Source of the DNA: Rhodobacterales bacterium
GTDB taxonomy: Bacteria > Pseudomonadota > Alphaproteobacteria > Rhodobacterales > Rhodobacteraceae
Length of the DNA stretch: 64,000 bases
Reading direction: 5' to 3'
NCBI GenBank assembly: GCA_025362795.1
Contig: JANYFE010000030.1
Location: 1 to 64,000, forward strand
Each line of letters opens with the position of its first letter. Within the stretch, counting starts at the first letter, position 1. Below are positions 60,660 through 64,000 of the stretch, piece after piece. A program made the translations under genes and the position numbers. Under the pieces are notes generated by a model that was given only the letters and a program-made list of their open reading frames with translations, was not told the DNA's origin and searched no databases.

Positions 60660-61919
60660 ATGCGGCGGGTGGTGGTGACGGGTTTGGGGATGGTGACACC
60701 GCTGGCTTGCGGCGTCGATGCGACATGGGAGCGGCTGTTGGCCGGACAATCGGGGGCCGGGACGATCACGCGGTTTGATCCGGCCGGTGTGATCACGCAA
60801 TATGCCTGCGAGATTCCGCGGGGCGATGGGTCGGACGGCACATTCAACCCAGATGACTGGATGGAGCCGAAGGACCAACGTAAGGTCGATGACTTTATCA
60901 TCTACGGCATGACGGCGGCGGTGCAGGCGGTGGCGGATTCGGGCTGGGCGCCGGCCAATGAAGAAGAACGTTGCCGGACCGGGGTGATGATCGGGTCGGG
61001 GATTGGCGGCTTGCAGTCGATTGCCGAGACGGCGGTGCTGATCAAGGAGCGGGGCAGCAAGCGGGTGTCGCCGTTCTTTATTCCGGGGTCGTTGATCAAT
61101 CTGATCTCGGGGCAGGTCTCGATCCGGTTCGGCTTCAAGGGGCCGAACCATGCGGTGGTGACGGCCTGTTCGACCGGGGCCCATGCGATTGGCGATGCTG
61201 CGCGGATGATCGCGTTCGACGATGCCGATGTGATGGTGGCGGGCGGCGCCGAAAGCCCGATTTGCGAGATTGGCATTGCCGGGTTCAACGCCTGCAAGGC
61301 GCTGTCCACCAAGCGGGCGGATGACCCGACCAAAGCCAGCCGCCCCTATGATGCGGACCGCGACGGCTTTGTGATGGGCGAAGGCGCGGGTGTGGTGGTG
61401 CTGGAGGAATACGAGCACGCCAAGGCGCGCGGTGCGAAGATATATGCCGAAGTGCTGGGCTATGGGCTGTCGGGCGATGCTTACCACATCACCGCGCCGT
61501 CCGAGTCGGGCGAGGGCGGTTACCGGTCGATGCAGATGGCGTTGAAGCGGGCGGGGCTGCGGCCGGATCAGGTCGATTACATCAACGCGCATGGCACCTC
61601 GACCATGGCCGACACGATTGAGCTGGGCGCGGTCGAGCGGCTGCTGGGCGATGCGGCGGCAGGCGCGGTGATGTCGTCTACCAAGTCGAGCATCGGCCAT
61701 CTGCTGGGGGCTGCAGGTGCGGTGGAGGCGATCTTCTGTGTGCTGGCCCTGCGCGATCAGGTGTGCCCGCCGACGATCAACCTGGACAGTCCTGCGGTGA
61801 TGCCGAAGCTGGATCTGGCGGCGAACAAGGCTGTCAAGCGGCGGGTGGATGTGGCGCTGTCGAATTCGTTCGGCTTTGGCGGCACCAATGCCAGTCTGGT
61901 GCTGGGGCGGGTCGGATGA
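60660..61919 (+). CDS. fabF: 3-oxoacyl-ACP synthase II
   Basis: 419 residues, beta-ketoacyl-ACP synthase. MRRVVVTGLGMVTPLACGVD opens it, VVTACSTGAHAIGDA carries the nucleophile cysteine, and YINAHGTSTMADTIEL with STKSSIGHLLGAAGAVEA the two active-site histidines. It elongates acyl-ACP chains. GGAGG stands eight bases before the ATG. Its stop overlaps the mltG start (ATGA), so the two are coupled. Confidence 0.97.
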   Translation: MRRVVVTGLGMVTPLACGVDATWERLLAGQSGAGTITRFDPAGVITQYACEIPRGDGSDGTFNPDDWMEPKDQRKVDDFIIYGMTAAVQAVADSGWAPANEEERCRTGVMIGSGIGGLQSIAETAVLIKERGSKRVSPFFIPGSLINLISGQVSIRFGFKGPNHAVVTACSTGAHAIGDAARMIAFDDADVMVAGGAESPICEIGIAGFNACKALSTKRADDPTKASRPYDADRDGFVMGEGAGVVVLEEYEHAKARGAKIYAEVLGYGLSGDAYHITAPSESGEGGYRSMQMALKRAGLRPDQVDYINAHGTSTMADTIELGAVERLLGDAAAGAVMSSTKSSIGHLLGAAGAVEAIFCVLALRDQVCPPTINLDSPAVMPKLDLAANKAVKRRVDVALSNSFGFGGTNASLVLGRVG

Positions 61920-63100
61920 TCTGGCGCAACGTCGCCTCGAACGCGCTGACGCTGTTCATTGTTCTGCTGGTGATCGGGTCGGGCCTGTTGACCTGGGCGC
62001 GGCAGATTTATGTCGGGCCGGGACCGCTGAACCAGGCGGTGTGTTTCCGGGTGGAGCGGGGCGCCACGATTTCGGCGGTCAGTCAGGTCTTATTGCAGCA
62101 AGGGGCGGTGGCTGATGCGCAGATATTCCGGATGGGTGCGGAATATTCCGGGCAGCGCGACAAGCTGAAATTCGGCAGCTATCTCATTCTGCCGCAAGCC
62201 TCGATGGCGGGGATTGTGGATGTTCTGACCAGCGGCGGGCAATCGACCTGCGGGCAGGATGTCAACTTCCGGATCGGGGTTGCCGTGGCCGAGGTGGTGC
62301 TGCGCAAGCTGGACCCGGCGACCAACAAATATGTCGAGGTGGTGAAGTTTGATCCGGCGGCGGGGGCCGCGCCGGCGGAATATGTCACGGCGAGCGCGGA
62401 GCCCGATCTGCGCTGGCGGGTGACTTTGGCGGAAGGCGTGACCAGCTGGCAGGTGGTCGAGGCGTTGAAGGCAGCGGATTTCCTGACGGGCGAGGTCAAG
62501 GCGGTGCCGTTGGAGGGCACGCTGGCACCGGGATCCTACGAGGTCGACAAGGGCAGCGACCGCAACGCCATGCTGGCCGCGATGACGAAGTTGCAGGCTG
62601 GGACACTGGCCGAGTTGTGGGCGACGCGGGCGGAGGGTTTGCCCTACAAGACACCCGAGGACGCGTTGATCATGGCGTCGATCGTCGAGAAGGAGACCGG
62701 GGTGGCAGAAGAGCGGCCTCAGGTGGCCTCGGTCTTTCTGAACCGGCTGGCGCAGGGCATGAAGTTGCAGACCGATCCGACGGTGATTTATGGCGTGACC
62801 AAGGGCAAGGGACTGCTGGGCCGGGGATTGCGGCAAAGCGAACTGCGGCGCGAGACACCGTGGAATACGTATGTGATTGATGGCCTGCCCGCGACGCCGA
62901 TCGCCAATCCCGGGCGGGCGGCGATTGCGGCGGCATTGAACCCGGCCAGCACGAAATATCTGTTCTTTGTGGCGGATGGATCGGGTGGTCATGCGTTTGC
63001 CGAGACGCTGGAGCAGCACAACATCAACGTAGCCAAATGGCGGGCGATCGAAGCGGCGCAAGGGGTGACGGATAGCAGCGGGACGGGAGGCGGGAACTGA
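61916..63100 (+). CDS. mltG: Endolytic transglycosylase MltG
   Basis: 394 residues. An N-terminal membrane anchor (SNALTLFIVLLVIGSGLLTW) is followed by a LysM-like domain and the YceG catalytic domain. The catalytic glutamate is in LIMASIVEKETGVAEERPQV. MltG cuts nascent peptidoglycan glycan strands and so sets their length. The start at 61916 overlaps the fabF stop by four bases. After it come the regulatory sites of the gene transfer agent cluster. Confidence 0.95.
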   Translation: MIWRNVASNALTLFIVLLVIGSGLLTWARQIYVGPGPLNQAVCFRVERGATISAVSQVLLQQGAVADAQIFRMGAEYSGQRDKLKFGSYLILPQASMAGIVDVLTSGGQSTCGQDVNFRIGVAVAEVVLRKLDPATNKYVEVVKFDPAAGAAPAEYVTASAEPDLRWRVTLAEGVTSWQVVEALKAADFLTGEVKAVPLEGTLAPGSYEVDKGSDRNAMLAAMTKLQAGTLAELWATRAEGLPYKTPEDALIMASIVEKETGVAEERPQVASVFLNRLAQGMKLQTDPTVIYGVTKGKGLLGRGLRQSELRRETPWNTYVIDGLPATPIANPGRAAIAAALNPASTKYLFFVADGSGGHAFAETLEQHNINVAKWRAIEAAQGVTDSSGTGGGN

Positions 63101-63115
63101 GGCGCAGGTGCGCGG

Positions 63116-63131
63116 TTAACAAACGGTTAAC
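63116..63131 (+). promoter_or_regulatory. CtrA-type binding site upstream of the gene transfer agent genes
   Basis: TTAACAAACGGTTAAC fits the alphaproteobacterial CtrA consensus TTAA-N7-TTAAC exactly. Its centre is about 84 bases before the predicted transcription start. RcGTA-type clusters are known to depend on CtrA in Rhodobacter, so the position is meaningful. Confidence 0.7.
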
Positions 63132-63171
63132 GATGCGCACAGCAAGCCTATGATCCTGCTGGATTTTATGG

Positions 63172-63200
63172 TTGACTTTGCGTCCGGTCCGCAGTAGATA
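63172..63200 (+). promoter_or_regulatory. Probable promoter of the gene transfer agent cluster
   Basis: TTGACT, 17 bases, TAGATA. The predicted start of transcription is at about 63207, which coincides with the first ATG of a 24-codon frame. Confidence 0.55.
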
Positions 63201-63206
63201 TTGTGC

Positions 63207-63281
63207 ATGATGGAAGAGGTGGGCAAGCGGCGCGGGGGCAACCCCGGGGCCGCTTTTTCATTGCGCAGGGATCGGACGTGA
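63207..63281 (+). CDS. Possible 24-codon leader peptide ahead of the gene transfer agent genes
   Basis: An ATG-ATG start at the predicted transcription start, then EEVGKRRGGNPGAAFSLRRD and RT, with TGA at 63279-63281. It spans the leader terminator completely, so translation would keep that hairpin open. It would be leaderless if the promoter call is right. The reading is speculative: no family is known and the frame is short. Confidence 0.3.
   Translation: MMEEVGKRRGGNPGAAFSLRRDRT
63227..63258 (+). terminator. Terminator-like hairpin in the gene transfer agent leader
   Basis: GCGGCGCGGGGGCAACCCC then GGGGCCGC and TTTTT: a long GC stem with a T-run. It lies between the promoter and g1, so it would block the cluster unless bypassed. 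Confidence 0.7.
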
Positions 63282-63300
63282 GAGGGCAGGTTGGGCAGGC

Positions 63301-63624
63301 ATGACGATCAAATTCTCTGCCGGGGAGCAAGCGCCGGCTGACGTGCTGGCGACCACGGAAAGCGCCTTGCAAGACGCTACGGAACGGTTGTCCCGGCTGA
63401 TCGACAGGATCAGGGCCGGGCACTTTCAGGATGCAAAACTGGCCCCCGAGACAGTCAAGGAACTGAACCGGGCGCTGCAAGTGGTGATTATAGGGAAACG
63501 CGATGCTGAACTCCTCCGCAAGCATGTTACCGGGACTGTCGGAGCCCGCGCGCTCGACTTTCACGCCGCGCGGGATGAGATCGGGCGCAGGCTGGCTCGC
63601 CTCCGCGACGCAGAGCCAGGTTGA
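63301..63624 (+). CDS. Gene transfer agent protein g1 (small-terminase-like)
   Basis: 107 residues, mostly helical and charged (TTESALQDATERLSRLIDRI; TVKELNRALQVVIIGKRDAE). In Rhodobacter-type gene transfer agents the first gene is a short protein acting as small terminase, followed by the large terminase; this order is seen here. No catalytic residues are expected. It overlaps the terminase frame by 122 bases, as is usual for such compact phage-derived clusters. Confidence 0.75.
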   Translation: MTIKFSAGEQAPADVLATTESALQDATERLSRLIDRIRAGHFQDAKLAPETVKELNRALQVVIIGKRDAELLRKHVTGTVGARALDFHAARDEIGRRLARLRDAEPG

Positions 63625-64000
63625 CGAATTTCTGGCGGGGCTGAGCGAGAACGCCCTGCTGGCGTTGCCGTGGATGTTCGAATTCTGGGCCCTGCCGCAT
63701 CAGTTGCCGCCCGATGGGGCGTGGAAAACCTGGGTGATCATGGGGGGGCGCGGCGCGGGGAAAACCCGGGCCGGGGCGGAATGGGTCAGATCGGAGGTCG
63801 AGGGCGCGGGGCCGGGCGATCCGGGCACGGCGCGGCGGGTCGCTTTGGTGGGCGAGACGGTCGATCAGGTCCGCGACGTGATGATTTTCGGCGAGAGCGG
63901 GATACTGGCCTGTTCGCCGCCCGACCGGATGCCGGAGTGGCAGGCGGGGCGCAAACAACTGGTCTGGCCCAACGGTGCGGTGGCGCAGGTGTTTTCGGCG
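63503..64000 (+). CDS. Gene transfer agent large terminase, N-terminal part (cut by window end)
   Basis: The frame is open from the ATG at 63503 (AGGGA ahead) to the window end, 166 residues. ALLALPWMFEFWALPHQLPP followed by GGRGAGKTRAGAEWVR holds Walker A, the packaging ATPase motif. It resembles gene g2 of the Rhodobacter capsulatus gene transfer agent, which packages host DNA into phage-like particles. The nuclease half lies outside the window. A second ATG at 63524 is possible. Confidence 0.88.
   Translation, partial: MLNSSASMLPGLSEPARSTFTPRGMRSGAGWLASATQSQVDEFLAGLSENALLALPWMFEFWALPHQLPPDGAWKTWVIMGGRGAGKTRAGAEWVRSEVEGAGPGDPGTARRVALVGETVDQVRDVMIFGESGILACSPPDRMPEWQAGRKQLVWPNGAVAQVFSA

Follow-up and report, generated by a model that had tools for sequence, protein, structure and literature searches.

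A conserved leader with a terminator-like hairpin precedes the gene transfer agent cluster of Rhodobacteraceae and may act as a GafA-dependent transcription gate

Introduction

Anti-terminators that are loaded at the promoter include the lambda-type Q proteins, which act at late promoters, and AlpA of Pseudomonas aeruginosa. Both have been compared with GafZ, an anti-terminator of the Caulobacter crescentus gene transfer agent (GTA) that reportedly has no sequence or structural similarity to either of them (Tran & Le 2024, PMC11150451). The Caulobacter GTA promoter is activated by GafY together with IHF, while GafZ needs an element located between the -35 and -10 hexamers and bypasses a terminator found after the first gene (PMC11150451). 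This terminator, terGTA, consists of three 150-bp repeats after gtaT. Anti-termination reportedly also controls BaGTA of Bartonella (Korotaev 2025, as cited in PMC13236601), which belongs to an independent GTA lineage.

GafA, the master activator of the best-studied GTA, corresponds to GafY and GafZ in fused form, and the authors of the Caulobacter study suggested, as an explicit question, that GafA of Rhodobacter capsulatus may have an anti-termination activity so far unrecognised (PMC11150451). Binding to a 50-bp probe that lies 76-125 bp upstream of g1, the first gene of the R. capsulatus GTA (RcGTA) cluster, has been shown for GafA as well as for its isolated C-terminal domain (PMC6363796, PMC9638019), and the start site of this cluster has been placed from published RNA-seq. 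In 2014, Mercer and Lang found that expression was lost when the promoter (-129 to -100) was deleted, and they called a hairpin further downstream a 'putative RNA stem-loop' without describing it as a terminator (PMC3999984). Here, we describe the corresponding leader in another member of the Rhodobacterales and its distribution across the Rhodobacteraceae.

The leader between mltG and g1

The window, a 64,000-nt stretch of a Rhodobacterales bacterium contig (JANYFE010000030.1), ends within a GTA cluster. Upstream of the cluster and on the same strand is the coding frame of mltG (61910-63100), identified as an endolytic transglycosylase gene by matches to Pfam YceG and NCBIfam MltG. The first cluster gene, g1 (63301-63624, + strand), does not itself match any Pfam or NCBIfam model and was recognised as the 107-aa small terminase by its position 5' of the large terminase and by its size, which is like that of R. 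capsulatus g1 (324 bases; PMC6854486). The large terminase gene g2 (63503-64000, + strand; Pfam Terminase_6N) runs on to contig position 64915.

Five features follow one another in the approximately 200 bases that separate mltG from g1: a CtrA-type box, an IHF-like site, a promoter, a start-site motif and a stem followed by a U-tract. The CtrA-type box, TTAACAAACGGTTAAC (63116-63131), lies 56 nt 5' of the -35 hexamer. The IHF-like position, CAAGCCTATGATC (63143-63155, - strand), is weak in the window, with two mismatches to YAAN4TTGATW. The promoter is made up of TTGACT (63172-63177, + strand) and TAGATA (63195-63200, + strand) with 17-nt spacing, and the spacer contains TGCG-N7-CGCA (63179-63193), which includes the conserved CGNNCGGTC. 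From the promoter spacing, transcription is predicted to start at approximately 63206-63208, at or adjoining an initial transcribed element, CATGATGGAAGAGGTGGGC (63206-63224, + strand; family consensus CAWGCTRGAAGAARTGGGC). The terminator-like hairpin AAGCGGC...GCCGCTT with its U-tract, TTTTT, occupies 63225-63258 on the + strand (stem 63225-63255, approximately -24 kcal/mol; U-tract 63254-63258).

Taken alone, the window sequence is not much proof of the hairpin, which could be due to chance, because a generic scanner called neither the promoter nor the terminator in the window and the leader fold is unexceptional for DNA this GC-rich (z -1.5). Within the GTA cluster, these generic scans for promoters and terminators gave no notable result either. 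It is the comparison with relatives that decides.

Conservation across the Rhodobacteraceae

A search of 246 family genomes, almost every one from a different genus, located the GTA large terminase in 222, and the upstream DNA of 140 loci was compared. The same leader was found at 127 of the 140 loci. Its consensus runs from TTGAC through a spacer containing CGNNCGGTC to a TATA-like -10, and then from CAWGCTRGAAGAARTGGGC, which lies at the predicted start, to the hairpin and a T-run. Among 108 aligned leaders, each position of TTGAC is at least 96% conserved, the strongest spacer positions are 82-96% conserved and the position of the -10 hexamer is conserved. From the start-site motif to the T-run, the median distance is 49 nt (interquartile range 48-50). 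The promoter reported ahead of g1 in a preliminary description of this DNA is thus present and strongly conserved in the family, and the leader as a whole is much more conserved than could be known from a single sequence. T is nearly excluded at -7, the last position of the -10 hexamer (6/108 aligned leaders), and the -35 is near consensus, a combination that suggests an activator-dependent promoter.

When a covariance model of the leader was used to search the family, 173 of 242 genomes, nearly all representing one genus each, were matched, and the leader was nearly always present as a single copy. Among 387 genomes of the class outside the family, only weak matches with E values above 1e-4 were returned, and we read these as generic hairpins. 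Likewise, the pattern TTGACN{28,30}CAWGCTRGRAGA occurred 35 times in 100 genomes and the reversed pattern did not occur in them. A stricter pattern matched at least 118 stretches in a public genome collection, and approximately 75 of the 80 matches listed bear Rhodobacteraceae or Rhodobacterales names, including R. capsulatus, whose record was the only one of those listed that was inspected. The leader also provides a DNA signature for finding GTA clusters in genomes.

Five of the matches listed come from records that do not bear a Rhodobacteraceae name (L266, L240, L220, L254 and L262). These comprise a Hyphomicrobiales MAG, a Coriobacteriaceae MAG, Pseudomonas TH31 and two other bacteria, and could reflect chance, misbinning or transfer. 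In four family genomes (G102, G113, G142 and G188) the leader is present and no terminase match was found; contig breaks and diverged or decayed clusters are possible readings.

The hairpin as a putative intrinsic terminator

The preliminary description placed a GC-rich hairpin with TTTTT between the start site and g1, and the comparison bears this out as a terminator-like feature. A stem with a T-run was found in 119 of the 127 leaders, and a stricter terminator score was reached by 73 of the 127 and by only 2 of 1260 dinucleotide shuffles. The 8-nt stem arms occur in 71 different sequences, while the U-tract is kept directly 3' of the stem. In 70 sequences, the stem as named by hand has 72 cells in which both sides have changed, compared with 32.5 after shuffling, and a covariation score of 0.299, compared with at most 0.18 for slid partners; kinship inflates such counts, yet the slid controls retain the kinship and still favour the named stem. 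RNAalifold returned no structure from the MAFFT alignment because the stem arms slip in register. No Rfam match at the gathering score was found in this stretch of the window or in ten relatives. The segment 5' of the hairpin and the hairpin itself are conserved as one unit. Pairing of CAUGC with a later GCAUG was considered and rejected, as leaders with CAAGC retain GCATG.

The hairpin might simply have been the terminator of the upstream gene. Indeed, 96 of the 127 leaders have an upstream mltG in the same orientation, at a median distance of 71 nt, and few leaders have another terminator between mltG and the promoter. However, a separate strong terminator is present there in 10 leaders, and the leader terminator was kept in all 10. 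Of the 31 leaders for which the comparison found no upstream mltG, 29 keep it as well. A role solely as the upstream gene's terminator is therefore disfavoured. R. capsulatus (L257) has both the separate mltG terminator and the leader hairpin.

The 24-codon frame

A frame of 24 codons (63207-63281, + strand) begins with an ATG at 63207, at the predicted transcription start, spans the hairpin and ends with a TGA at 63279-63281. According to the preliminary description, it would, if translated, hold the hairpin open and couple GTA output to the state of translation. While the frame is there in the window, neither its start codon nor the frame itself is conserved, and we reject this mechanism on start codon, frame length and codon pattern. 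Of 117 leaders, 66 begin the frame with ATG, 41 with AAG, 5 with AGG, 2 with ACG and 3 with other triplets, so that ATG is replaced in 51. The frame also often stops early, with 22 of the 66 ATG frames failing to extend past the T-run. Furthermore, frames that begin with AAG are equally open (32/41 past the T-run), and the variation by codon position is similar with and without ATG. The frame is an incidental by-product of a conserved nucleotide element.

A leaderless frame translated across the hairpin as the basis of an attenuator is hardly credible on this evidence, even with an ATG at the predicted start in the window. An attenuator or riboswitch made of RNA alone, with an alternative anti-terminator fold, fares only marginally better and we consider it very improbable. 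The conserved segment of approximately 19 nt directly 5' of the hairpin would suit it, but by eye this segment has no partner able to open the hairpin, and neither an alternative fold from RNAalifold nor an Rfam match was obtained.

The link to GafA

The genome that includes the window encodes a fused GafA (L002), found as a 399-aa open frame on contig C53 that matches DUF6456, the GafA C-domain, with an E value of 8.3e-61. The same C-domain model also matches in Caulobacter. Members of the GafA C-domain family were found in 224 of 242 genomes, and the leader was present in only two of the 18 genomes that lack one, both of which are fragmented assemblies. Across 112 genomes, the leader score and the GafA C-domain score have a rank correlation of 0.70, or 0.64 as a partial correlation allowing for the terminase score, with shared ancestry and lineage divergence as a possible confounder.

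In R. capsulatus (L257), the promoter, the motif, the hairpin with its U-tract and g1 follow one another in the same order as in the window. The 50-bp probe bound by GafA corresponds to L257 7101-7052 (g1 starts at L257 6976), which takes in the spacer element along with the -10 and the start-site motif. Based on its placement, which is like that of the Caulobacter GafZ element, and on binding of this stretch by the GafA C-domain in R. capsulatus (PMC9638019), the CGNNCGGTC spacer element is a candidate binding element for that domain. The initial transcribed element is a candidate sigma pause or anti-terminator loading element; for the pause, this draws on no more than two matching positions, A2 and T6 of a -10 element, which CAWGCT near +1 retains.

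A GafA-dependent gate and its alternatives

We lean towards reading the leader as a promoter that depends on GafA and has a transcription gate built into it. The gate would work by anti-termination of the Q or GafZ type and not as a translation-coupled attenuator. RNA polymerase would start at approximately 63206-63208, adjoining the CAWGCTRGAAGAARTGGGC element, and GafA, whose C-domain is homologous to the anti-terminator GafZ, would bind the block of -35, -10 and start site, as its binding in R. capsulatus indicates. By analogy with GafZ, GafA would then be transferred to polymerase, probably during a promoter-proximal pause at CAWGCT. Some 45-50 nt after the start, ahead of g1, polymerase would reach the intrinsic terminator. 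Polymerase modified by GafA would pass it and transcribe the whole cluster, while unmodified polymerase, whether from the GTA promoter or from mltG upstream, would stop, as the conserved intrinsic-terminator signature suggests. The sequences themselves show the elements, how well these are conserved, covariation in the stem, a constant spacing, the one-copy pattern and the co-variation with GafA, and published work in R. capsulatus shows the need for the promoter and the binding of GafA to this block; the pause, termination at the hairpin and its prevention by GafA are steps that we infer. More broadly, the evidence leaves us evenly divided on whether GafA is a processive anti-terminator across the Rhodobacteraceae, such that GTA production needs both initiation driven by GafA and elongation by GafA-loaded polymerase through the conserved leader terminator.

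The anatomy of the leader fits a variant of GafZ- or Q-type anti-termination in which the terminator has shifted into the leader. Like the Caulobacter GTA, it combines a homologous activator, a GTA promoter, an element between -35 and -10, an upstream IHF-like site, a putative terminator to bypass and a single genomic target. In place of the terGTA repeats there is a short intrinsic hairpin approximately 49 nt after the start and before the first gene, and that the known terminator of Caulobacter sits after the first gene counts against a gate in the leader. Bypass has been published for GafZ (PMC11150451), whereas for GafA of the Rhodobacteraceae it would follow by analogy. As at the promoters served by lambda Q and AlpA, there is a loading element in the promoter, a terminator soon after it and one long operon, with the loading and pause elements candidates here and the terminator putative.

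A deletion made in R. capsulatus also counts against a gate. In strain SB1003, removal of -73 to -46, which takes out the hairpin and the T-run, left mean g2-lacZ expression very similar to wild type (PMC3999984). These data are population means from two replicate assays of a plasmid construct in stationary wild-type cells. Under those conditions, the hairpin does not limit the output of the producing subpopulation, which speaks against an attenuator that throttles expression. The result fits complete bypass by GafA if the promoter is otherwise silent, and an insulator or no role at all would look the same. The gate can tolerate it only if nearly all polymerases that start there in producing cells are modified by GafA and the promoter is otherwise silent, and it is because of this neutral deletion that we do no more than lean towards the gate.

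The unchanged expression would equally suit an insulating terminator that blocks transcription from the upstream housekeeping operon of mltG, along with background transcription, from entering a lethal cluster, with GafA a conventional activator that drives initiation strongly enough to overcome a leaky terminator. The frequent presence of mltG upstream, with few other terminators between, also points this way. However, an insulator would be expected 5' of the promoter, and the hairpin instead keeps a constant distance of 49 nt beyond the start motif, where every GTA transcript must cross it, and it persists both alongside a separate mltG terminator and where no mltG was found. We therefore consider insulation unlikely, though worth keeping in view. 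An RNA element of some other, non-terminating sort is improbable; its hairpin might lend stability to the 5' end, serve as a binding site for a protein or give rise to a short functional RNA. Such an element would be consistent with the conservation of the 5' segment and hairpin as a unit, with the lack of an Rfam family match and, again, with the neutral deletion, but a U-tract retained directly after the stem by 119 of 127 leaders, combined with stem sequences as varied as the 71 arms, is the signature of an intrinsic terminator.

For the preliminary description, which took a terminator between promoter and g1 to imply control by premature termination, the terminator-like hairpin stands as a conserved sequence feature and the coupling to translation falls away. 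Its remark that no attenuator had been described in GTA clusters needs qualifying, given anti-termination in the Caulobacter GTA (PMC11150451) and the R. capsulatus stem-loop, whose deletion was without effect (PMC3999984). That stem-loop has been known since 2014 (PMC3999984); what had apparently gone unrecognised is the conserved family-wide leader. The leader supplies the question about GafA with a target, in the form of a defined, single-copy and conserved terminator-like hairpin behind a promoter bound by GafA, present in R. capsulatus as well. A gate, if true, would account for the silence of a lethal cluster in most cells despite its housekeeping neighbour, and would link the control of GTAs with that of phage late genes.

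Upstream sites and a second hairpin

The preliminary description also drew attention to the CtrA-type box, TTAA-N7-TTAAC, and this is not a chance match. Shuffling gives an expectation of 0.01 per window. With up to one mismatch allowed, 50 of 126 leaders carry the box at the offset seen here, compared with 0-5 in other windows, and 35 of 126 carry an IHF-like site at its own offset, compared with 0-8 in other windows. The R. capsulatus leader differs from that in the window: it lacks a CtrA-type box at this position and has the separate mltG terminator, and CtrA did not bind the R. capsulatus GTA promoter in vitro (PMC6363796). The box fixed 56 nt before the -35 suggests that CtrA may control the GTA directly in some members of the family.

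Just 3' of the terminator, L104, L119, L022 and others, including R. capsulatus (L257 7014-6992, - strand), carry a second conserved hairpin, CTCGTGC...GCATGAGAGG. This hairpin is absent from the window, and its strict motif was found in 53 of the 127 leaders. The 3' arm carries GAGAGG, usually 10-16 nt before the g1 start codon, and the second hairpin may hide the ribosome site.
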